Assembly: GCA_018266075.1 (NCBI GenBank)
Contig: JAFEBB010000001.1
Span: 124,001-188,000 of the forward strand
Direction: 5' to 3'
DNA: 64,000 nucleotides
Origin: Deltaproteobacteria bacterium
Lineage (GTDB): Bacteria > Myxococcota > Myxococcia > Myxococcales > SZAS-1
The notes beneath the pieces were generated by a model that did no database searches, was not told the origin of the DNA, and was given only the letters and a program-made list of their open reading frames with translations. The position numbers were made by a program, and so were the translations under genes. Below are positions 7,541 to 63,301 of this stretch, piece by piece (position 1 is the stretch's first letter; each line of letters opens with the position of its first letter).

Positions 7541-8869
7541 CTATTGCAGGCAATACCCCGGCACCGTGATGTCGACGTTCGGGTACAGGTAGAGGAAGTC
7601 GAAGCACATCTCGTCTTCCGTGTCCTCGCCGAAGCTGATCGAGGTCGACGACGTGGTGGTGTTGTAGTGGCAGTGCGTGGTGAGCACGTCGCCGGGGAAG
7701 ACCTGCATGCTCACGGGCTTCACCTGCTGATCGTCGAAGCTCCAGTTGTCGGTCTCCACGAGCAGCTCGCTTCCGCCGTCGGGATGCGTGTTCACGGTGT
7801 CGATGTGGCTGCCGTGGGTGTGCATGTGCGGCAGCGCCGCGAAGACGTTGAAGGTGACGTCGTACGAGGCCGGGTTGGTGCAGGTGCCCGTCACTTCGAA
7901 GTCGGCGCTGCCCGCGGGGATGGTGAAGCTGTCGTTGCCCAGGGCGATCACCTGCGCGCTGTGCTGACGCGGCTGATCGGTCCACCAGAAGGCCACGCCG
8001 GAGTTGTCCGTCTGCGAGGCGCCCGTGAAGTTGTGGTAGTGCGTCTGCAGCACGTACTGGTCGCCGTCCTTCACCGGGAAGCCCACGTCACTGGGCAGCG
8101 TGTAGGGCTGGATGCCGGGCGCCCAGGCGTAGATGAACTGCGCGTCGTCGGGGCCGGGGCCACCGAAGCAGTCGTAGTCGGTCGCGGGCGCGCCGCCGGT
8201 GGGCAGCCGATACAGGATCATGTGGTGCAGGATCTGCGAGTTGTCGACGACGGGTCCGAACTCGGTGAGCGTGCGCGGCCCGCCGTCTTCCGTGTGCACC
8301 GTGAACGCGAAGCAGTGGTACAGGTTCGACGCGTTGCCCGCGTCCGGCGTGATCACGAAGTCCTGAGCCGTTCCCTCGAAGGCCGCGCCGGTGAGATCGA
8401 TCGTCCCCGAATCGGCCACGGGGCCGGCGTCGCAGGTGCCGCCGTCGGTGCCCGGGCAGGCGCTCTGGGGCGCGCCCGCGGCGGCCCAGGCGTTGATAAG
8501 CTGCACCTCGTCCGGCGTCGGCCGCGCGCCCGAGGGCGGCATCTGGCCGCTCGCGACCTTGTTCGCCATCAGCGTGTACACCGGCGTGTCCGGCTGCTCG
8601 ACGCTCAGCTTCTGCGTGTCGCCGTACGACGCGAGCGGGTGCGGCGCGCCGAACGCGGCCGGATCGCCGTGGCAGGTGAGGCAGTAGGTCTGGATGATGG
8701 GCTGCACCTGGCTGTCCCAGCTCACGGGGCCGCAGCCGCCGTCGTGCACGCCCGCGTCGTTCGAGCCGCCGCCGTCGGTGGCGCCCTTGCTCGAGCCGCA
8801 GCCGGCGAGTCCGAGCGCGACGAGCGAAACCGCGAAGATCGTGCCGCCGCGCATCAGAAGATGGTGCAT
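7541..8869 (-). CDS. Lipoprotein: cytochrome c domain plus copper monooxygenase-like domain
   Basis: 442 residues. A signal peptide ends in lipobox LAGC. A c-type heme site YCLTCH (about residue 70) starts a small cytochrome domain that continues to GQMPPSGARPTPDE, where the Met is the likely sixth ligand. From about residue 165 the protein resembles the copper type II monooxygenases (PHM/DBM): LHHMILYRLP (His-His), THYHNFTG, LPHMHTHGSHI (His-x-His) and DEMCFDFLYLYP (Met ligand region). Heme and copper centres in one exported polypeptide suggest periplasmic redox chemistry. The substrate is unknown. GGAGGCGG precedes the ATG. It is convergent with the msrA operon. Confidence 0.8.
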   Translation of the reverse strand: MHHLLMRGGTIFAVSLVALGLAGCGSSKGATDGGGSNDAGVHDGGCGPVSWDSQVQPIIQTYCLTCHGDPAAFGAPHPLASYGDTQKLSVEQPDTPVYTLMANKVASGQMPPSGARPTPDEVQLINAWAAAGAPQSACPGTDGGTCDAGPVADSGTIDLTGAAFEGTAQDFVITPDAGNASNLYHCFAFTVHTEDGGPRTLTEFGPVVDNSQILHHMILYRLPTGGAPATDYDCFGGPGPDDAQFIYAWAPGIQPYTLPSDVGFPVKDGDQYVLQTHYHNFTGASQTDNSGVAFWWTDQPRQHSAQVIALGNDSFTIPAGSADFEVTGTCTNPASYDVTFNVFAALPHMHTHGSHIDTVNTHPDGGSELLVETDNWSFDDQQVKPVSMQVFPGDVLTTHCHYNTTTSSTSISFGEDTEDEMCFDFLYLYPNVDITVPGYCLQ

Positions 8870-47516: not shown

Positions 47517-49091
47517 CTATGAGACCTCGAACACAGCCGAGCGTTCGAGGCCTGCGAGGATCTCCTCGTCCGTCTCAGCCTTCGAGGTCTCGTCCTCGAG
47601 CACTGCGATGGCCCCCGCCGCAGCGAGCTCTTCAGCCGTCACGACCGATGCGGTCCGCAACACGCAACATCCGCGGTCGAAGAGACATCGCTCGACCTCT
47701 TCTGCGCGCGTTGCTGACTCCACCCGCACCACCGCGCCGCCGTGGCCATACCGCTTCTTCCGCTCGGCGCTCGCGACCGGCGCGCGCACGCTGCTTCCTG
47801 CATGGGCCTGACGAATCATTCCGGCCGCGACCGTCTCATTGCTGCGCGCATCCACGAGGATGAACGCGCCCGTTCCCGGCGAGTCGCGATACGCATCCGC
47901 GAAGATCGGCCGCTGGCAAGCGATCCGCACCTGGGCGATGTCGTTCTTCTCCAGCGCGCTCGCAGCCACGAGCTCCAGCGACTCCAAATCCACCCTGCCC
48001 TGCACCTCCGCGATGCGCGCGCGCACGCGGCGCGCGGTGTGCTTGAGCACGAGCTCGCGCGAACCGTCGAGCGGCCCATCGCCCATCCACACCAGCGTGG
48101 CCTCGAGATCCGTCGCAACCGTGGGCGCCGTCGCTGCATGCGCGAGGAGCTCACCACGGCTCAGATCAATCTCTGAATCCAACCGGACCACGACCGACTG
48201 CGGCGCGCTCGCCTCCTGAAGCGTGCCATCGAACGTGTCGATCGCACGGACGCGGGACCGCTGTCCCGAAGGCAGCGCGACCACCTCGTCGCCAATTCTC
48301 AACCGGCCCGACGCGAGCTGCCCCGCGAAGCCGCGGTAGTCGAGGTTTGGGCGCACGACCAGTTGCACCGGAAAGCGCATCGGCCTCGAACTTGCCGAGC
48401 GGCCGATGGCGACCGTCTCGAGGTACTCCATCAAGGTTGGGCCGGAATACCAGGGCGTCTTCACACTTCGTTGAACGACATTGTCGCCCGCCGTCGCCGA
48501 GATCGGGATGGGCGCGACCTCTTGAAACCCGAGCGTCGCGGCGAACTTGGCAAACGTCTCAACAGTCTTATCGAATATCTCGCGTTCAAACCCGACGAGA
48601 TCCATCTTGTTGATGGCGACCACGAGCCGCGGGATCCCCAGCAGCGATGCGATGTACGCATGACGCCGGCTCTGCGTGAGCACGCCAAGCCGCGCATCGA
48701 TCAGGATCACGCCGACATCCGCCGTCGACGCCCCGGTGGCCATGTTGCGCGTGTACTGCTGGTGGCCGGGCGTATCCGCGATGATGTACTTGCGCTTCTT
48801 CGTCGAGAAGTAGCGATGCGCGACGTCAATCGTGATGCCCTGTTCGCGCTCGGCACGAAGCCCGTCGGTGAAGAGCGAATAGTCGATCTCGCCGCCCTGC
48901 TTCGACGCGCGCTTCACCGCGGCGACCTGATCTTCATAGACGCCATTGCCCTCGAAGAGCAGGCGTCCGATGAGCGTCGACTTCCCGTCGTCGACCGAGC
49001 CGACCACGACGCATCGAACCAACTCCTTCTGCTCGTGCTCGGCCAGCTTGGCGATGACCTCCGAGTCCGGATCCGTGATGGCGGCGTGCAT
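47517..49091 (-). CDS. cysN: Sulfate adenylyltransferase subunit 1 (GTPase) with vestigial kinase-like tail
   Basis: 524 residues. With CysD it forms APS from sulfate and ATP, driven by GTP hydrolysis. GTPase motifs are GSVDDGKSTL (G1), DTPGHQQYT (G3), INKMDLVG (G4) and SATAGDN (G5). Two elongation-factor-like beta barrels follow to about 440. The last 85 residues start ERKKRYGHGGAVVRVE and LFDRGCCVLRT, which lines up with the opening and first helix of APS kinase (CysC) but lacks the GLSGSGKST P-loop between them. The ATG overlaps the cysD stop by one base. It is the last gene of the sir operon. Confidence 0.9.
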   Translation of the reverse strand: MHAAITDPDSEVIAKLAEHEQKELVRCVVVGSVDDGKSTLIGRLLFEGNGVYEDQVAAVKRASKQGGEIDYSLFTDGLRAEREQGITIDVAHRYFSTKKRKYIIADTPGHQQYTRNMATGASTADVGVILIDARLGVLTQSRRHAYIASLLGIPRLVVAINKMDLVGFEREIFDKTVETFAKFAATLGFQEVAPIPISATAGDNVVQRSVKTPWYSGPTLMEYLETVAIGRSASSRPMRFPVQLVVRPNLDYRGFAGQLASGRLRIGDEVVALPSGQRSRVRAIDTFDGTLQEASAPQSVVVRLDSEIDLSRGELLAHAATAPTVATDLEATLVWMGDGPLDGSRELVLKHTARRVRARIAEVQGRVDLESLELVAASALEKNDIAQVRIACQRPIFADAYRDSPGTGAFILVDARSNETVAAGMIRQAHAGSSVRAPVASAERKKRYGHGGAVVRVESATRAEEVERCLFDRGCCVLRTASVVTAEELAAAGAIAVLEDETSKAETDEEILAGLERSAVFEVS

Positions 49092-49999
49092 CAGAAGTAC
49101 CCCTCGCGCTTCTTGGTCTCCATCGACGCCTCTTCGTCGTGATCGATCATCCGGCCCTGGCGCTCGGAGACCTGCGAGGCAAGCATCTCGTCGATGATTT
49201 GAGGAACGGTGACCGCGCTCGAGAGCACAGCGCCCGAGAGCGGATAGCAACCCAGCGTGCGGAAGCGAATCCGACGCACCACGGGCTGCTCCCCAGGACG
49301 CAGGCGCATCCGCTCGTCGTCCACCATGATCAGGTTGCCGCCCCGCTCCACCACGGGCCGCTCGGCGGCAAAGTACAAAGGCACAATGGGAATGCGCTCG
49401 AGCCAGAGGTAGTGCCAAACATCGAGCTCGGTCCAATTGGACAATGGAAAGACGCGCAGGCTCTCGCCGGGATCCACGCGCAGGTTGAACAGATTCCAGA
49501 GCTCCGGCCGTTGATTCTTCGGATCCCACTGACCGTGGCGATCGCGGAACGAGAAGATGCGCTCCTTCGCGCGCGACTTCTCCTCGTCACGGCGCGCACC
49601 GCCGAAGGCCACGTCATAGCCGCCCTCGCGAAGCGCCTCGAGGAGCGCCTGGGTCTTCATCGCGTGCGTGTACTTCTGGCTGCTGTCGTCGAAGGGGTTC
49701 ACCCCCTCGGCGAGCGCCTTCCGATTGGTGTGAATCCGCAAGTCGAGCCCGTGCTGCCTCGTGAACGAGTCGCGAAACTCGTACATGGCGCGGAACTTCC
49801 AGGTCGTGTCGATGTGCAACAGCGGAAATGGAACCGGTGCGGGATGAAACGCCTTCCGAATCAGGTGCAGCAGCACCTGCGAGTCCTTGCCGATGCTGTA
49901 CAGAACGATCGGCTTCTCGGCCTCTCCTGCGACCTCGCGGATGATGTGAATGCTCTCGGCCTCGAGCTGCTGAAGGTGAGTGAACCGCGGGGCGCTCAT
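49091..49999 (-). CDS. cysD: Sulfate adenylyltransferase subunit 2
   Basis: 302 residues, the usual length. It is the catalytic subunit of ATP sulfurylase, with the PP-loop [16 protein letters not shown] and the family blocks [41 protein letters not shown] and [16 protein letters not shown] precedes the ATG, which overlaps the cobA stop by four bases (ATGA). Its own stop overlaps the cysN start (TGATG), fixing the 1:1 order cysD-cysN. Confidence 0.95.
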
Positions 50000-50757
50000 G
50001 AGTAGGCCTCCTCGGCAGTCGACGCGACGCCGAGCTGCTCCAACTGCTCGCGCAGCGCCACGACTTCTCCGACCACCAGCAGCGCCGGCGTGCCGACGTC
50101 CGCGGCTTCGGCGAGCAGAGCCACGCTCGCGAGCGTGCCCTGCACGACGCGCTGGTGCGCCCAGGTGCCCGCTTCCACGACGGCTGCCGGCGTCGACGGG
50201 GCGCGTCCCTGCTCGACGAGCTTCCGAGTGGCCTGTCGCAGCTTCTTCCCCGACATGAAGAGCACGAGCGTCGGCGACCGCGCGAGGTGGGCCCAATCTG
50301 GCTCGGCGCCCGAGAGCGACGCCGTCGCGAACGTGACCGCCGCGGAGATCCCGCGGTGCGTGATGGGAATGCCCGCGCTCGCCGGCGCCGCGACACCACT
50401 CGAAACGCCCGGCACAACCTCGAACGGAATGCCGGCGCGCACGAGCTCGAGGGCCTCTTCTCCGCCGCGCCCGAACACGAACGGATCGCCGCCCTTGAGC
50501 CGCACCACGCGTCGACCGAGTCGCGCCTGGGCGATCAGCGTGGCGTTGATCTCCTCTTGCGCGACCTGCTCGCCGCCTCCGGACTTACCCGCAAAGATGA
50601 GCCGCGCGTGCGCGCGTGCGTGGCGAAGGATGTCCGGATGCACCAGGCGGTCGTAGACGACGGTGTCCGCCTCACGGAGAAGCTCGGCCGCGCGCAGCGT
50701 GAGCAGCCCCGGGTCACCCGGGCCAGCGCCGACGAGATACACAATTCCATGGTTCAT
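49996..50757 (-). CDS. cobA: Uroporphyrinogen-III C-methyltransferase
   Basis: 253 residues. It uses SAM to methylate uroporphyrinogen III to precorrin-2, the first step to siroheme. Motifs are [64 protein letters not shown] and the late [15 protein letters not shown] lies before the ATG at 50757, which overlaps the sirC stop by four bases. In this operon it supplies the siroheme used by Sir. Confidence 0.93.
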
Positions 50758-51431
50758 CGTTCCACCTCGCTGAGCCCCGCACTCGCCGAGTCGAGAAGCG
50801 TCGCCAGCCGGCTCCGCCAAATCTGTCGAATCGCGCGCCAGAGCTCGCGCTTGCGCCCCATGGCGATGAGCTCGGCAGCGCCGGCGTCGATCACAGCCTG
50901 GAGCTTGGCCGCGCGATCGGGCCCTCCGGGCGTGAGCTCCCGCAGCCGCCCGAGCAAACGCGCGAGCGTCCCGAACTCTTCGCCGATGGCCACCATCGCT
51001 CGCTTGCGCAGGAAGCGCGCGAGAGCCGGCGCGCGTCCGGAGGTCGAGACGGCGACGGTCACCGGTCCGCGACGGCCGATGGAGGGCATCGTGAAATCGC
51101 AGAGCTCGGGCACGTCGGCAGCGTTGACGAGAATCCTTCGCGCGCGGGCCTCAGCCACGACCGATCGGTTCACCTCGGGTACTTCAGCCGCCGTGAACAC
51201 GAGAAACGCGCCGGCACAGTCGCCACTCCGGTACTCACGTTCGACGAGCTCGATCCGACCCGCGTCAGCGAGCGCGCGGAGCTCGGGCGTGACCTTCGGG
51301 TCAATCACGCGAACCTGAGCGCCCACCTCGAGCAGCTGCGCCAGCCGGCCCTGCGCGATACGCCCACCGCCGACGAGCACCACGCTTCGCTCTTCGAGCT
51401 GCAATGCAATCGGAAAATCGTAGGTACTCAT
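50754..51431 (-). CDS. sirC: Precorrin-2 dehydrogenase / sirohydrochlorin ferrochelatase-like (SirC/CysG N-terminal type)
   Basis: 225 residues. The Rossmann motif VVLVGGGRIAQGRLAQLLEVGA binds NAD, and VNAADVPELCDFTMPSIGRRG is the family core that oxidises precorrin-2 to sirohydrochlorin. The helical C-terminal dimer domain is present. In CysG the same domain also inserts iron; whether this stand-alone form does so is open, and no other chelatase is in the window. Both ends overlap neighbours by four bases. Confidence 0.88.
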   Translation of the reverse strand: MSTYDFPIALQLEERSVVLVGGGRIAQGRLAQLLEVGAQVRVIDPKVTPELRALADAGRIELVEREYRSGDCAGAFLVFTAAEVPEVNRSVVAEARARRILVNAADVPELCDFTMPSIGRRGPVTVAVSTSGRAPALARFLRKRAMVAIGEEFGTLARLLGRLRELTPGGPDRAAKLQAVIDAGAAELIAMGRKRELWRAIRQIWRSRLATLLDSASAGLSEVER

Positions 51432-52300
51432 GAGCTCGCCTCGGCCGGCGCGAGGATCTGTGCCCGGGCGAGCTTGAAGTAGCGCCAGAGGAGCACGCCC
51501 TCGAGCACCACCGTCGCGGCCACGAGCGAATAGCCGAGCACCGCAGCGACGAGGTGCTGGTCGATCAGCACGCGCGCGAGACCAAAGCTGACCAGCAGCG
51601 CGTCCGAGCCCATGCAGGCTCGCCGGAAGGTCTCATTGGGGAGCTTTCGCAGCACGAGGAACCCGAGCGGAATGCCGATGAGCACGCCCGGCGCAGCGAT
51701 GCCCGAGAGCCGAATGCTCTCGCCCGTGAACAACCCAGCTGACCCGTAGAGTCCCGCCGCCAGGATCGACTCCGCAATCCGGAACAGGCTCAATGCCGCG
51801 CGGAAGTTCTCTTTTGTATAGCCCTGATTATTGAGAAGCAGAGCCAATGGCGGCCCGGAGATCGTCGTCGCCGCGTAGAGCGCGCCCACCCCAGCGCCGA
51901 GCGGCACGCCTGCCACGACCTCGCGCTTGAGCGGCCAGCGCACACCGGCCGTCTGCAAGACGATCAGCGGCAGGAGCACCGCGTAGGTCGCAATTCGTAA
52001 GGTCGCATGTCCCGTCTGCGCGAGCGCGAAGGTGCCCAGCACGGCGCCCGGCACCAGGCCACCCAGCATGGGCAACATCCGTCGCCAGATCGCCGGGACC
52101 GCCCGGATGTTCACGAGCAGCGCCACGAAGTTGATGAAAACCTCGACGAGCACCAGCGCGGGGCTCAAGAGCTTGTTGGAGAAGAGCAGCAACGCCAGCG
52201 GCACGGTGATGGCCGAGAACCCGTAGCCGAGGCCGCCATTCACCAGGGCAGCCACGAGGGTAATGAGGGCAAACAGAAGATCGATGTCGGTCAGGTGCAT
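51428..52300 (-). CDS. TauE/SafE-family sulfite/sulfonate permease
   Basis: 290 residues with about eight hydrophobic segments in two halves, each with a Gly-rich signature (ALVNGGLGYGFSAITVP, GVPLGAGVGALYAATTISGPPLALL), as in the DUF81/TauE family. Members move sulfite, sulfoacetate, sulfate or related anions. Its place between cysH and sirC argues for sulfate or sulfite transport across the inner membrane. Direction cannot be told from sequence. It starts 12 bases after cysH. Confidence 0.85.
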   Translation of the reverse strand: MHLTDIDLLFALITLVAALVNGGLGYGFSAITVPLALLLFSNKLLSPALVLVEVFINFVALLVNIRAVPAIWRRMLPMLGGLVPGAVLGTFALAQTGHATLRIATYAVLLPLIVLQTAGVRWPLKREVVAGVPLGAGVGALYAATTISGPPLALLLNNQGYTKENFRAALSLFRIAESILAAGLYGSAGLFTGESIRLSGIAAPGVLIGIPLGFLVLRKLPNETFRRACMGSDALLVSFGLARVLIDQHLVAAVLGYSLVAATVVLEGVLLWRYFKLARAQILAPAEASS

Positions 52301-52312
52301 GTGTTCCTCGGA

Positions 52313-53029
52313 CTAGCGCCTCGCGTGCAGCCCGCACTCCTTGTGCTCGGGCTGCTCCCACCACCAGCGTCCGGCCCTGGCGTCTTCGTACGGCTTCACC
52401 GCGCGAGTACACGGCGCGCAACCAATCGAGGAGAAGCCCACATCGTGGAGCGCGTGGTACGGCACGCGGTTCTGTCGAATGTGGTTCCACACATCGGCTT
52501 CGGTCCACGCGGCGAGCGGATTGAGCTTCCAGATTCCATTCTGCGAATCGTCAATCTCGATGACTTCGACACCCGCGCGCGTCACCGACTGCTCGCGTCG
52601 CAGCCCGGTCACCCACGCCTCACGGCCAGCGAGCGCGCGTTTGAGAGGCTCGACCTTTCGAATGGCGCAGCACGCCTTTCGCTGCTCGAGGCTCTCCCGA
52701 AACGAGTACAGCCCCTGCTCGCTCTCGAGCTTCTCCACGCTGGCGCGCTCGGGCGCGTACACGCGCAGGTTGATTCCATAGCGCTCGCGGATGGCCTGCA
52801 TCACTTCGTACGTCTCGGGATGTAACCTTCCGGTATCAAGCGTAAAGACCTCCAACTTCGGCGTGACGCGCGAAGCGAGATCGATGAGCGCCACGTCCTC
52901 CGCGCCGAAGCTCGAGGCGAGGACTGCCCGAGCCCCAAAGCGCGCCCACGTCCAGGCGAGGATGTCGGGCGCGGATCTTCCTGCCAGCTCGGCGCGCGCA
53001 GCCGAGAGCTCGTCGAGGGCGGCGCTCAC
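52313..53029 (-). CDS. cysH: APS reductase, iron-sulfur type
   Basis: 238 residues from GTG 53029, chosen because it overlaps the sir stop (GTGA) and has GGGGAG at 8 bases; a GTG at 53038 is too close to that site. The enzyme reduces adenylyl sulfate to sulfite with thioredoxin. The PP-loop region SSFGAEDVALIDL, LDTGRLHPETYEVM, and the cluster ligands KACCAIRKVEPL and GCAPCTRAV (CC plus CxxC) mark the [4Fe-4S] APS form rather than PAPS reductases. The C-terminal Cys is in KECGLH. Confidence 0.93.
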   Translation of the reverse strand: MSAALDELSAARAELAGRSAPDILAWTWARFGARAVLASSFGAEDVALIDLASRVTPKLEVFTLDTGRLHPETYEVMQAIRERYGINLRVYAPERASVEKLESEQGLYSFRESLEQRKACCAIRKVEPLKRALAGREAWVTGLRREQSVTRAGVEVIEIDDSQNGIWKLNPLAAWTEADVWNHIRQNRVPYHALHDVGFSSIGCAPCTRAVKPYEDARAGRWWWEQPEHKECGLHARR

Positions 53030-54765
53030 TGGGCGCACTCCCCGTCCATGTCCACGACCTGGAACTCGACGTTGCTTCCGAGGTCGATGAAGTCGTCGGG
53101 CTTGGCGTCGGCCTCTTTGAGCTCGATCAGATCCGCGAGCAGTTGCTTGGCGACGGGAATCTCCAATCGCTGGAAGTACGCGCGCGCGGTCTCTCCAGGC
53201 GTCCGATTCGCGTCGAAGTGTGCAATCAGCCGATCAATGGCTTCAGGCACGCGCCGCGCGGGAACCTTGCCCACGAGCCGTCCGAAGGTGGCGCCGCGCA
53301 CGTCGATGCCGCCGCCAATCATGACGAAGTACTGGGGCACCAACTTCGTCCCCACGTGCCGCGTGCCGCCCTGGAGCCCAATCGCAGAGACATGGTGCTG
53401 CCCGCAGCCGTTGGGACAGCCCGAGACCTTGATGTCGAGGCCTTCTCGTCGCAACGCACCGTGCTTCTCGCGCAACCGGTCGCCCACGAGCTGGGCCACG
53501 CCACGAGAAGCGGTCACCGCGATGCGGCAGGTCTCTGCGCCCGGGCAGCTCACGACATCGGACGTCGAGCCTGCGTGCGGCTCGCCAAGGCCCACGGCGT
53601 CGAGGTCGAGCCAGAGCGCAGGCAGGTCCTGCTCGCGAATCCAGCGGATGAGCAGGTTCTGATCATTCGTGGTGCGCAGCGTCGCGTCGCCGTACTTGGC
53701 AACGATGTCGGCGAGCGCGCGCAGCTGCCGGCTCGAGACATCTCCAAGTCGCAGCCAAACGGCGACTGCACAGTATCCCTCCTGGCGCTGCGGCCGTGCG
53801 TGCGCCCGCTTCCAGTCGGTGAAGCGAGTGGGCATCGGCCGCTCCACGCGCGGAAGCGGCGCCTTGTTGGGCGGCTGCTCGTCGGTCGCTTCAACAGGCA
53901 GCGGCCGCCCGCCCTCCTTTCGAATGAGCTCGAGCTGCTCTTCATAGAGCGCCTGGAACTTCTCCCAGCCCAGGCGCTTGATGGCCCACTTCATCCGCGC
54001 CTTTTGCAAGTTGCCGCGCTCGCCCTCGGCGTTGAAGACACGTGCAATCGCCTCGCACGACGCGAGCAGCTCCTCGGCGGGCAGGAACTCGTGCAGCACG
54101 CCGGCGTTGCGCGGCAGCGTGCTCGTGCCGCCACCGGCGACGATCTTGAACCCGCGAACGCCCTCGCGAACGCGGCCAATGATGCCGATGTCGTTCATGG
54201 CGCCCTGGGCGCAGTCGTCGTCGCAGCCGGAGATCGCAATCTTGAACTTGCGCGGCAAGCCAGAGCCGTAGGGCCGTCGCAGGAAGTGGCGCGTCACCAT
54301 CTCGCCGTAGGGCGTCACGTCGAACGCCGCGCCGCTGCACACGCCCGCGTACGGGCAGCCCGCGACATTGCGCACGGTGTGCGAGCACGCCTCGCGCGTG
54401 GTCAGCCCGCTCCGCGACACCGCTTCCATGAACGCCGGCGCGTGCTCCGTCTTCACGAAGTGAAATTGAAAGTTCTGCCGCGTGGTCACGTGGCCGAACC
54501 CACGCGAGTACTTGTCGGCGCAATCGGCGAGCACCACCAGCTGCTCGGCGCTGAGCACGCCTTGCGGGATCTTCACGCGCACCATCTGCACGCCGTCCTG
54601 GCGCTGGCCGTAGATGCCGCGGCTCAAGCGGTAGTGGCGGTACTGGTCACTGGTCAGCTCGCCGCGCTCGAACTTCTCGAGCATCTCCACGAACTCGGCG
54701 GACTCGGCGGCGTCACCGAAGCTCTCGCGGCTGCGGCTGTCGTTGGCTTCCGGTCTTGCGGTCAT
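53026..54765 (-). CDS. sir: Assimilatory sulfite reductase hemoprotein (ferredoxin/NirA-like)
   Basis: 579 residues of the nitrite/sulfite reductase hemoprotein family. It reduces sulfite to sulfide with six electrons. The two ferredoxin-like halves each have their core (VTTRQNFQFHFV; TTNDQNLLIRWI). The [4Fe-4S]-siroheme ligands are SCPGAETCRIAV and SGCPNGCGQHH. Its context with cysH and siroheme genes supports sulfite over nitrite. The ATG at 54765 has GGAGG upstream. Transcription must pass the attenuator at 54781-54823. Confidence 0.92.
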   Translation of the reverse strand: MTARPEANDSRSRESFGDAAESAEFVEMLEKFERGELTSDQYRHYRLSRGIYGQRQDGVQMVRVKIPQGVLSAEQLVVLADCADKYSRGFGHVTTRQNFQFHFVKTEHAPAFMEAVSRSGLTTREACSHTVRNVAGCPYAGVCSGAAFDVTPYGEMVTRHFLRRPYGSGLPRKFKIAISGCDDDCAQGAMNDIGIIGRVREGVRGFKIVAGGGTSTLPRNAGVLHEFLPAEELLASCEAIARVFNAEGERGNLQKARMKWAIKRLGWEKFQALYEEQLELIRKEGGRPLPVEATDEQPPNKAPLPRVERPMPTRFTDWKRAHARPQRQEGYCAVAVWLRLGDVSSRQLRALADIVAKYGDATLRTTNDQNLLIRWIREQDLPALWLDLDAVGLGEPHAGSTSDVVSCPGAETCRIAVTASRGVAQLVGDRLREKHGALRREGLDIKVSGCPNGCGQHHVSAIGLQGGTRHVGTKLVPQYFVMIGGGIDVRGATFGRLVGKVPARRVPEAIDRLIAHFDANRTPGETARAYFQRLEIPVAKQLLADLIELKEADAKPDDFIDLGSNVEFQVVDMDGECAQ

Positions 54766-54780: not shown

Positions 54781-54823
54781 CAAAAAACAAGAAGGCCCGC
54801 CTCCTTTTCGGGGGCGGGCCTTC
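54781..54823 (-). terminator. Attenuator hairpin of the sir operon leader
   Basis: On the minus strand GAAGGCCCGCC (54823-54813) and GGCGGGCCTTC (54801-54791) form a perfect 11-bp stem with an 11-base loop, followed by TTGTTTTTTG (54790-54781). It lies between the Cys leader ORF and the sir ATG, so it can stop transcription before the operon. The 5' arm can alternatively pair with GGCGGG at 54879-54874 inside the leader ORF. Confidence 0.85.
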
Positions 54824-54848: not shown

Positions 54849-54953
54849 TTAGGCGAAGTCTCCCGGTGCTCGTCCCGCCGGACGGCAGCAGCAACACGCA
54901 CAGCAGCAGCAGGCCGCGGTGTGGTCGAAGCTGGTAGCGGAGACGGTTCGCAT
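54849..54953 (-). CDS. Cysteine-run leader peptide of the sir operon
   Basis: 34 codons plus TAA. The peptide begins MRTVSATSFDHTAA, has CCCCACCCC at residues 15-23 and ends RPAGRAPGDFA. Eight Cys codons in nine are TGC or TGT. There is no Shine-Dalgarno, and the ATG is only about 5 bases after the predicted transcription start, so it may be translated as a near-leaderless ORF. The product is unlikely to act as a protein. Stalling at Cys codons when charged tRNA-Cys is low would change folding of the RNA downstream. A second copy of the design lies at 63156-63260. Confidence 0.88.
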   Translation of the reverse strand: MRTVSATSFDHTAACCCCACCCCRPAGRAPGDFA

Positions 54954-54964
54954 CAGGAGCCCAA

Positions 54965-54994
54965 GGAATACGCAGCTCGCACGCGCTGCGTCAA
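54965..54994 (-). promoter_or_regulatory. Sigma-70-type promoter of the sir operon
   Basis: TTGACG (54994-54989), 18-base spacer, TATTCC (54970-54965), then 11 bases to the leader ATG. The same spacings occur at the second leader. Confidence 0.7.
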
Positions 54995-55045
54995 GCGATG
55001 GTCGGTCGATTCTTGAATTACACAGTGTCCACGGCGGGTTTGTGG

Positions 55046-56395
55046 CTATCCCACCTTCATCGGCCGGCCCAGCTCTTCCCAGTCGTTCATCCCGCCGCGC
55101 ACGGCCTTCACCTTCTCGTAGCCTTGCGCCTTGAGGAGCAGCAGCGCCGTGAGCGAGCGCTTTCCGGACGCGCAGATGGTGACGAGCGGCTGGTCGTGCC
55201 GCGCCGGAAGGCCTGGCGCCCCGGCTTTGGAGAGCGTCCCCACGGGCACGTTCACCGCCTCGGCGATGTGGCCCTCCGCGAACTCGCGCGGCGAGCGCAC
55301 GTCGATGAGCGCGGCTCCGCCCTTTACCAGATCCGCAATCGCGTCGAGCTCCACCATGTCCGCCGACTCGCGCGCGAGATCCTGGATCGCCGAGAGGATC
55401 TCCGGCGTCGGTCCCGACGACGATGCGGGCTTCGGCGCGTCATCCGCCGACCCCACGAAGAGCTGGGGCAGGTGCTTCTTGAACGAGCCGCTGTACTTGA
55501 AGGCATTGTCCGGGAACATCACCACGCAGATGTTGCCCGGCTCATCGGGCACCAGCTTCAGCGCGCCCGCGAGCGCCATGCCCGAGCTCGGCCCGGCGAT
55601 GATGCTCTCTTCCTGATTCAGGCGCCGCGCCATTTCATAGGCTGTCGCGTTATCGATTTCGACGAGCCCGTCATACTCTTTAGGCAAGAAGAAGTCGGTC
55701 AACTTGAGCGCGCGCAGCGTGCGCACGCCGGGGATGTCGTGCCCCTCGGCAGGGTGCACGCCGAAGACCTTCACGTCCTTGCGCTGCGTGCGCAGGAAGC
55801 GCCCCGTGCCGGTGATGGTGCCGCAGGTGCCAAGCCCGGCCACGAAGTGGGTGATCTTGCCCTCGGTCTGCTTCCACACCTCCGGACCCGTGGTGCGGAA
55901 GTGCGCGTCCGGATTTGCCGGATTCTTATATTGATTGAGCTCGTGCCAGCCAGGCTGCTTCGACATCTCCTCGGCCTTCGACATCGCGCCTTCGGGCTGT
56001 CCCGGCATCGGGCACAGGTCGTCCGAGAGCTCCACCAGCTTCGCGCCGAACATGCGCAGGCTGGCGCGCTTCTCCGCGGGGATTGCGGTCGAGAGCGTGG
56101 CCGTGAACTCGATGCCCTTGGCGTTCGAGATCATCGAGAGCCCGATGCCGGTGTTTCCCGAGGTCGGCTCCACGAGGTGCTGGAGCTTGATGCCCTGCTC
56201 TTCCGCGTCGCGGATGAGGTTGGCGGCCACGCGATCCTTCACGGCGCCGAAGGGGTTGTACCACTCGAGCTTGGCGTAGACCTTCGTGTGCTTGAACGGC
56301 ACCACGCGGTTGAGCCGCACGATGGGCGTGGGGTTGTCGGCGTTCGACAGCATGTCGAGCATCGAGTCGTAGACGCGCTTGGAAAAGTCAGTCAT
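55046..56395 (-). CDS. Cysteine synthase/cystathionine beta-synthase fused to rhodanese
   Basis: 449 residues. Residues 1-325 are a fold-type II PLP enzyme: WYNPFGAVKDRVAAN (Schiff-base Lys), EPTSGNTGIGLSM (substrate loop), GLGTCGTITGTGRFL (phosphate cradle) and GPSSGMALAGA. Residues about 350-449 are a rhodanese domain with LIDVRSPREFAEGHI and the active loop ICASGKRS (Cys nucleophile). The PLP part would join sulfide with O-acetyl- or O-phosphoserine. The rhodanese could deliver or remove sulfane sulfur. AGGAG precedes the ATG. Confidence 0.87.
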   Translation of the reverse strand: MTDFSKRVYDSMLDMLSNADNPTPIVRLNRVVPFKHTKVYAKLEWYNPFGAVKDRVAANLIRDAEEQGIKLQHLVEPTSGNTGIGLSMISNAKGIEFTATLSTAIPAEKRASLRMFGAKLVELSDDLCPMPGQPEGAMSKAEEMSKQPGWHELNQYKNPANPDAHFRTTGPEVWKQTEGKITHFVAGLGTCGTITGTGRFLRTQRKDVKVFGVHPAEGHDIPGVRTLRALKLTDFFLPKEYDGLVEIDNATAYEMARRLNQEESIIAGPSSGMALAGALKLVPDEPGNICVVMFPDNAFKYSGSFKKHLPQLFVGSADDAPKPASSSGPTPEILSAIQDLARESADMVELDAIADLVKGGAALIDVRSPREFAEGHIAEAVNVPVGTLSKAGAPGLPARHDQPLVTICASGKRSLTALLLLKAQGYEKVKAVRGGMNDWEELGRPMKVG

Positions 56396-62168: not shown

Positions 62169-62636
62169 TCAGCCGCACGTCTCGGGCTTGACCTCGGACG
62201 TCACCTCGAATGCCGGCTGCGACTCCGGCACGACGCGCTCGAAGAGGGAGTGCGCAACCATCCCCACGGCCATCGCGGCCACGAAGAGCAGCGCCGCAGG
62301 GCAGCCCGCACCGAAGGCGACGATCCCCGGGCCCGGGCAGAAGCCGCCCAGTCCCCAGCCGATGCCGAAGATCGCCGCGCCTGTCACGAGCCGCGTGTCG
62401 ATGCCACGCGCAGCCGGCTCGGCGAATGAGGCGGCGAGCAGCGGTCGCTTGGGCGCGAGCAGACGCATCACCGCCAGCACCGCCAGCCCGGAGCCCATCA
62501 CCAGCGCCAGGCTCGGGTCCCAGCTGCCGGTGACGTCGAGGAAGGCGAGGATGTTGGCGGGCAGGGTCATGCCCGAGACCGCGAGCCCCACGGCGAAAAG
62601 GAGCCCACTCGCAAACGCCACGATCAGGTTCTTCAC
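62169..62636 (-). CDS. YeeE/YedE-type sulfur transporter, second half (DUF6691-like)
   Basis: 155 residues. The GTG start overlaps the stop of the first half (GTGA). It has four or so membrane segments (LIVAFASGLLFAVGLAVSGM, GAAIFGIGWGLGGFCPGPGI, AALLFVAAMAVGMVAHSLF) and Cys in GGFCPGPG and GAGCPAALL, as in the second repeat of YeeE proteins. The polar tail holds a final Cys. With the upstream subunit it should form one pore for a sulfur species such as thiosulfate. Confidence 0.85.
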   Translation of the reverse strand: MKNLIVAFASGLLFAVGLAVSGMTLPANILAFLDVTGSWDPSLALVMGSGLAVLAVMRLLAPKRPLLAASFAEPAARGIDTRLVTGAAIFGIGWGLGGFCPGPGIVAFGAGCPAALLFVAAMAVGMVAHSLFERVVPESQPAFEVTSEVKPETCG

Positions 62637-63076
62637 GCGGCACCTCCCAGCGCGTGCCGCAGCACGAAGACGGCCACCATCCCCAGCGCCATGAACACCA
62701 GCGTGGCCACGATGGAGCGCCCCGAGAGCCGACTGATGCCACAGAGCCCGTGGCCGCTGGTGCAGCCGCTGCCGAGCCGCGTCCCGAAGCCGACGAGCAA
62801 TCCCGAGGCGATGAGCAGCGCGCTCGAGTGCGGCACGTCCCAAGTGAAGAAGCGCGGCGCGAGCCGGCTCAGCACCAGACCGCCGAGCGCGAGCCCGCCG
62901 AGGAAGGCGCTGCGCCAGGGCAGGTCCGGGCGATCGAGCTCCAGCACGCCGCCGAAGATCCCGCTGATGCCCGCGGCGCGACCGTTGAGCACCCACAGGC
63001 CCGCGACCGCCAGGCCGGTGAGCACGCCTCCCACGGCCGCCGGGACCAGGTGAGATGTAACCGTTGGGTTGAGCAT
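62633..63076 (-). CDS. YeeE/YedE-type sulfur transporter, first half
   Basis: 147 residues from ATG 63076 (AGGAG at 8 bases). It has membrane segments AAVGGVLTGLAVAGLWVLNG, FLGGLALGGLVLSRL, SSALLIASGLLVGFG and IVATLVFMALGMVAVFVL. The family signature is GTRLGSGCTSGHGLCGISRLS, with the Cys used in YeeE/TsuA to pass thiosulfate. Single-chain YeeE proteins are about twice this length; here two genes encode the halves. It is expressed after a Cys leader peptide. Confidence 0.88.
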   Translation of the reverse strand: MLNPTVTSHLVPAAVGGVLTGLAVAGLWVLNGRAAGISGIFGGVLELDRPDLPWRSAFLGGLALGGLVLSRLAPRFFTWDVPHSSALLIASGLLVGFGTRLGSGCTSGHGLCGISRLSGRSIVATLVFMALGMVAVFVLRHALGGAA

Positions 63077-63089
63077 CGATTCGACTCCT

Positions 63090-63128
63090 GAAACGCAGAA
63101 GGCCCGCCTCCTCGTGGGTGGCGGGCCT
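63090..63128 (-). terminator. Attenuator hairpin of the YeeE operon leader
   Basis: On the minus strand AGGCCCGCC (63128-63120) and GGCGGGCCT (63108-63100) pair over 9 bp with an 11-base loop, followed by TCTGCGTTTC. The stem and the AGGAGGCGGGCCTTCT string match the sir attenuator, but the U-tract is weaker. Confidence 0.72.
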
Positions 63129-63155
63129 CGGGGTCCTTCGGGATTCGCTTTGCGG

Positions 63156-63260
63156 TTACGCGAAAGGTCCCGATGCCCGGCCCGCCGGCCAGCAACAGAG
63201 ACACGCACAGCAGCGACAAGCCGCGGTGGAGCCCTTGCTGGTGGCGGAAACGGGAGTCAT
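63156..63260 (-). CDS. Cysteine-rich leader peptide of the YeeE operon
   Basis: 34 codons plus TAA. It begins MTPVSATSKGSTAA, has CRCCACLCC at residues 15-23 and ends WPAGRASGPFA. It aligns without gaps to the sir leader: VSATS, TAAC, CAC, CC, PAGRA, G and FA are shared. Six of nine central codons are Cys. There is no Shine-Dalgarno, and the ATG is 11 bases from the -10. The same reading as for the sir leader applies, namely a sensor of cysteine supply. Confidence 0.87.
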   Translation of the reverse strand: MTPVSATSKGSTAACRCCACLCCWPAGRASGPFA

Positions 63261-63271
63261 CGGTTGCTCAA

Positions 63272-63301
63272 AGGCTAGGTGGCGCGTCGGCCTGGCGTCA
63301 A
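63272..63301 (-). promoter_or_regulatory. Sigma-70-type promoter of the YeeE operon
   Basis: TTGACG (63301-63296), 18-base spacer, TAGCCT (63277-63272), then 11 bases to the leader ATG. This is the same geometry as the sir promoter. Confidence 0.68.

Follow-up and report, generated by a model that had tools for sequence, protein, structure and literature searches.

Near-leaderless cysteine leader ORFs as putative transcription attenuators of sulfur genes in a Myxococcota genome

In mycobacteria, leaderless poly-Cys short ORFs are described as cysteine-responsive operon attenuators (Canestrari 2020, 10.1111/mmi.14498, as cited in PMC9031893, PMC13236596, and PMC9094748). Six such ORFs are predicted in M. 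tuberculosis according to one citing text (PMC9094748), and another refers to their control as translation attenuation (PMC13236596). For the Cys leader peptides of Actinobacteria, including mycobacteria, the accessible text of an earlier study reports no conserved terminator hairpins and leaves the mechanism open (Seliverstov 2005, PMC1262725). Several amino-acid leader peptides of Streptomyces lividans are transcribed leaderless, some with terminator hairpins; the eight leaders named in the accessible text are specific to Leu, Trp, Ala, Ile, Met, and Thr, and none is a Cys leader like those described here (PMC8079986). In Rhodobacterales, uORFC-8-2 upstream of cysS combines a Cys-codon uORF with an intrinsic terminator (Brewer 2021, PMC8632094). 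According to a 2010 survey, hardly any of the attenuators predicted in Acidobacteria had a known function (PMC2965389); in a search of the open-licence literature, Cys leaders were not found reported for Myxococcota or Acidobacteriota, and no paper paired them with Acidobacteria by name.

The window, the whole 64,000-nucleotide stretch of DNA analysed here, carries two leader ORFs upstream of sulfur genes, which we interpret, with a probability of about 0.83, as ribosome-mediated cysteine-sensing transcription attenuators with a near-leaderless start. Like the mycobacterial poly-Cys ORFs as cited, they are short, contain a run of Cys codons, precede operons, and occur more than once per genome; unlike them, their predicted start lies a few bases inside the RNA, and an intrinsic terminator and antiterminator-like pairing are present. 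The initial annotation had drawn a parallel with the mycobacterial leaderless ORFs; set against what the citing texts describe, it holds for the Cys-run, near-leaderless layout but is qualified by the terminator and by a gap exceeding that of true leaderless genes. The lack of an intrinsic terminator by which the mycobacterial type is recognized is not seen here, as a hairpin with T tract is present. The actinobacterial leaders described in PMC1262725 likewise lie ahead of cys operons and have their Cys codons in runs close to the stop; the present leaders differ from them in having terminator hairpins. The Rhodobacterales motif shares the Cys-codon uORF with intrinsic terminator but has two tandem Cys codons in a structured motif before cysS, and the accessible text does not mention a near-leaderless start (PMC8632094).

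Two leaders upstream of sulfur genes

All features described in this section are located on the minus strand. Leader 1 has the promoter TTGACG-18-TATTCC (54965..54994; TTGACG at 54994-54989, TATTCC at 54970-54965), followed by an 11 nt gap (54954..54964) without a Shine-Dalgarno (SD) sequence, giving a predicted 5' UTR of approximately 4-5 nt. The leader ORF (54849..54953; ATG at 54953-54951) encodes a 34 aa peptide, MRTVSATSFDHTAACCCCACCCCRPAGRAPGDFA, with eight Cys within nine codons. A GC hairpin (GAAGGCCCGCC...GGCGGGCCTTC) with a good T tract (54782..54823) begins 25 nt past the leader stop; at this position a simple terminator scan reports only a smaller overlapping hairpin (54806-54789). 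The first gene behind the leader encodes a nitrite/sulfite reductase (53026..54765; PF01077 and PF03460) and is followed by genes for a cysH-type PAPS reductase (52313..53038; PF01507), a TauE/SafE permease (51428..52300; PF01925), a protein of siroheme synthase N-terminal type (50754..51431; PF13241, PF14824), and a tetrapyrrole methylase (49996..50757; PF00590), probably of the uroporphyrinogen methyltransferase type given its context. Genes for putative sulfate adenylyltransferase subunit 2 (49091..49999; PF01507), designated cysD-type from operon order, and putative cysN-type subunit 1 (47517..49085; PF00009, PF22594) complete this series. Directly upstream of leader 1 lies a gene for a PLP enzyme of cysteine synthase/CBS type fused to a rhodanese domain (55046-56395; PF00291, PF00581), ahead of which the whole-window scan found no Cys leader.

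Leader 2 has the promoter TTGACG-18-TAGCCT (63272..63301; TTGACG at 63301-63296, TAGCCT at 63277-63272) and again an 11 nt gap (63261..63271). Its ORF (63156..63260; ATG at 63260-63258) encodes the 34 aa peptide MTPVSATSKGSTAACRCCACLCCWPAGRASGPFA, with six Cys within nine codons, and a terminator-type hairpin (63091..63129) with a weaker, interrupted T tract lies 26 nt past the stop; this hairpin is absent from the output of the simple terminator scan of the window. The genes that follow encode one half of a YeeE/YedE-type sulfur transporter (62633..63076; PF04143) and a DUF6691 protein (62169..62636; PF20398, with a weak PF04143 match below cut-off), presumed to be the second transporter half.

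Both ORFs have the run of codons for their own regulatory amino acid that characterizes attenuators, Cys making up 8/34 and 6/34 codons, and the intrinsic terminator ahead of the first gene is clear for leader 1 and present with a weak T tract for leader 2. When the window was scanned for a Cys cluster (4 in 8 codons) with a terminator, exactly these two leaders were returned and nothing else, while Rfam covariance models gave no matches in the window at gathering score. No further copies were detected in the same genome by DNA search, patterns, or a scan of the whole window and 30 loci; one Cys ORF from the latter scan (L145) was judged not credible as a leader.

Terminator and predicted antiterminator pairing

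A comparative leader set was built by scanning genome contigs with the sulfite reductase, which gave 80 loci. Of 123 Cys-cluster ORFs considered in all, 45 had terminators scoring 16 or more, and nine of these were discarded on inspection by eye, ahead of the promoter test (L020, L028 at 15438, L066, L070, three in L083, and two in L095), all ruled coding-frame noise except L066, which resembles an exported Cys-rich protein. The resulting 36 leaders comprise the two of the window genome, one of genome G041 from the same order, and 33 in 31 of the 80 loci, with one doubtful leader (L087) retained; since a T tract was required for inclusion, leaders lacking one are uncounted. Promoters of the 36 leaders were chosen blind to the start codon. 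For pairing and folding tests the set was extended to 42 by six leaders (L110, L037, L088, L028 at 3982, L093, and L096) that were found with the help of promoter criteria and are excluded from the promoter counts given below. A DNA search returned 20 places, of which, besides the two leaders of the window, only the G041 locus (L004) was accepted as a leader. The order-wide pattern TTGACN{55,85}TGYTGYGCNTGY proved too noisy, matching 85 of 145 genomes, with a backward-read control also matching in many; scanning 42 loci from this and a further pattern yielded one new leader (L110) and leader 1 again (L131), along with a candidate that was not credible (L132).

The promoter spacing, Cys runs, hairpins, gene context, and conservation seen in these sequences suggest a mechanism in which start sites, stalling, and read-through are the predicted elements. 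RNA would start from a sigma-70 type promoter a few bases ahead of the ATG, and a ribosome would load at or near the RNA 5' end without an SD sequence. With plentiful Cys-tRNA, the ribosome would translate the whole Cys run and reach the stop, which lies 25-26 nt ahead of the GC hairpin, and the terminator would form. With scarce Cys-tRNA, the ribosome would stall in the Cys run, leaving the downstream ORF segment to pair with the 5' arm of the terminator as an antiterminator, and polymerase would read on into the genes behind, the sulfite reductase operon for leader 1 and the sulfur transporter genes for leader 2.

Pairing between the ORF segment after the Cys run and the terminator 5' arm equals or exceeds the median of shuffled ORF sequence in 34/36 leaders; individually, only 10/36 reach p 0.05 against shuffles. 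Leader 2 is among the stronger cases (p 0.04, antiterminator probability 0.70 in a folding model), and the putative antiterminator of leader 1 itself is weakly supported (p 0.18, probability 0.20 whether stalled or not). Across the 42 leaders, own 5' arm and ORF pairs summed to -889.8 versus a mean of -775.7 (sd 17.1) for swapped pairs, with 0 of 20,000 permutations as good and own pairing better than expected in 37/42. A reversed-sequence control also favoured own pairs, to a lesser degree (-791.1 versus -755.8, sd 15.6), indicating that composition and relatedness or descent explain part of the own-pair signal. In the folding model, treating the Cys run as covered raised pairing between 5' arm and ORF in 32/42 leaders, from a mean of 0.53 to 0.68. 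A ribosome placed at the stop gave less pairing than a stalled one in 33/42 (mean 0.52 versus 0.68), a mean hardly below the 0.53 obtained with no ribosome.

The hairpin may instead serve translational attenuation in the mycobacterial style, not acting mainly as a terminator, with the stalled ribosome freeing the SD sequence of the next gene. The mycobacterial case is itself cited in those terms (Canestrari 2020), and the weak T tract of leader 2 and a GGAG just past its hairpin would suit such control, but in leader 1 a GC hairpin and T tract precede the sulfite reductase SD sequence, which lies beyond them, and the distance from leader stop to hairpin is held at 21-33 nt in 39/42 leaders. 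We consider this explanation unlikely, and transcription attenuation is retained as the preferred reading.

Start position relative to the promoter

As the initial annotation had noted, the arrangement of TTGACG, 18 bases, -10, 11 bases, and ATG is exact in both minus-strand copies, each inside GCTTGACGC. The spacing could nonetheless be incidental, with the true start further upstream and the hexamers due to chance. In line with this, the 9-mer GCTTGACGC taken alone is no commoner than chance allows (2 occurrences in the window versus 2.13 expected), the leader 1 -10, TATTCC, is weak, and a consensus promoter scan of the window listed neither leader promoter. Scored by position weights, each promoter is the top site in the 160 nt ahead of the first clustered Cys codon, and 0 of 200 mononucleotide shuffles of the upstream stretch scored as high as either. 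The leaders are paralogous, with 77% identity over 157 bases in the DNA search, and spacing common to both copies could therefore reflect descent; however, their 18 nt promoter spacers are identical at only about 8/18 positions, counted by eye.

Chance is most directly opposed by the comparative set, in which the first in-frame start falls 6-14 nt past the blindly chosen -10 in 30/36 Cys leaders. With promoters placed at random, the mean was 7.1 and the maximum 15 of 36 in 2000 trials, and swapped offsets gave a mean of 13.7 and a maximum of 22 in the same number of trials. The proportion is 25/27 among leaders with better promoters, the six leaders outside the 6-14 nt range have distances of 3, 4, 16, 22, 29, and 59 nt, and the mode of the set is 9 nt, compared with 11 nt in both window copies. 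Under a common promoter cut, this strong-promoter layout occurs in 25/36 leaders versus 5 of 411 background ORFs in the 80 loci, chosen mechanically as at least 450 nt long with a 60 nt upstream gap, a contrast somewhat inflated because many background ORFs may not be first in their transcript. Within the window, none of 26 long ORFs has a strong promoter so close to its start. Incidental spacing thus appears very improbable in view of these counts, and the near-leaderless start is, on this comparative sequence evidence, a real and conserved part of the leader design.

The claim that no SD sequence precedes the leader ORFs was borne out, the longest upstream match to TAAGGAGGTGA being 0 in copy 1 and 3 in copy 2. 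Among nine neighbouring gene starts scored in the window, matches were 5-7 at sir, SUMT, cysD, PALP, YeeE, and DUF6691 and 3-4 at cysH, tauE, and the siroheme gene, with the starts of sir, PALP, and DUF6691 placed three bases off their true positions in this scoring. Over the 36 leaders, the mean match was 3.47 versus 3.20 (sd 0.20) in shuffled upstream bases, approximately as shuffled, and 3/36 had a match of at least 5.

Transcription starts as a rule 6-7 nt past the -10. Given this rule, a 5' UTR of approximately 2-5 nt is more likely for these leaders than none. In bacterial leaderless genes, one report puts the first T of TANNNT about 12 bp upstream of the start (PMC3160421), which corresponds to a distance from -10 to start near 6. 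The gap in the Cys leaders, with a mode of 9 nt and 11 nt in the window, is above this value, and they are probably not strictly leaderless. The near-leaderless claim of the initial annotation is consequently upheld for the layout, found in 30/36 leaders and without an SD sequence, and narrowed in that a strictly leaderless form is improbable, with start sites predicted from the promoters.

Distribution in other genomes and significance

Of the 31 leader loci from the sulfite reductase scan, 26 have Acidobacteria-type titles, and single loci are titled Myxococcaceae (L022), Chloroflexi (L062), Acidimicrobiia (L073), Planctomycetota (L087, the doubtful leader), and Bifidobacterium breve (L100, probably a misnamed bin); these labels are record titles and unreliable as taxonomy. 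Two Acidobacteria-titled loci (L025 and L049) carry a second Cys leader on the other, minus strand (ASGCPCCR..CQ), whose start codons lie 6 and 9 nt beyond the -10, and shorter Cys leaders occur in two Chloroflexi/SAR202-titled loci (L093 and L096), found with promoter criteria. It is scarcely credible that the leader peptide works as a protein in metal or redox sensing with the hairpin incidental: Cys-rich small proteins exist and both paralogous peptides share M-x-x-VSATS and PAGRA, but between lineages the peptides are unlike outside the Cys run, judged by eye, and terminator distance and 5' arm pairing are conserved instead.

Within the same order, Cys leaders were identified in G041 (L004), G007 (L110), and three genomes of one genus (L239, L240, and L246). 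Thirty cysH-anchored loci of the order contained credible Cys leaders in four, one being the G041 leader again. The leaders of the three congeneric genomes, which are part of neither the 36- nor the 42-leader set, start 11, 11, and 10 nt past the -10. In these loci (reverse strand, approximately 990-1480), two serial Cys-rich ORFs precede cysH, each with its own terminator, and a near-leaderless promoter is found only at the first ORF. This arrangement looks like a tandem double attenuator conserved in three genomes of one genus. The closest relative of the sulfite reductase (L021) has no Cys leader by either Cys-leader scan; its sulfite reductase gene is itself preceded by TTGACT-17-TAGAGA-9-ATG (7965-8005) and may be near-leaderless.

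Loci of the order belonging to pathways for other amino acids served as a control: one candidate (L183) came from 30 of the ilvB family and none from 30 of the leuA family, in a scan that retained only candidates with good promoters and so gives no rate. The L183 candidate (reverse strand, approximately 1255-1470) is a Leu/Ile-containing leader ORF (MNRSPRSSNDAF...) with a terminator, located upstream of an acetolactate synthase family gene and with a TTGACA-type promoter 9 nt before the ATG. Since this ilv-type leader also looks near-leaderless, the layout need not be specific to Cys and may be common to attenuators of these bacteria in general.

As far as the search of the open-licence literature shows, a near-leaderless Cys leader with an intrinsic terminator outside Actinobacteria appears to be a new combination. 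The broader proposal, possible but at present doubtful, is that selection maintains near-leaderless initiation as a functional element of the cysteine attenuators of several phyla, where it would set the interval from ribosome loading to hairpin synthesis and replace the enteric pause hairpin; with the paralogous leaders and the tandem cysH leaders, this would amount to a ribosome-sensed sulfur regulon outside Actinobacteria. The putative attenuators described here would extend near-leaderless Cys leaders from Actinobacteria to the order of this genome and to Acidobacteria-titled genomes, making available many natural variants for asking whether a start at the 5' end matters for coupling between ribosome and polymerase.
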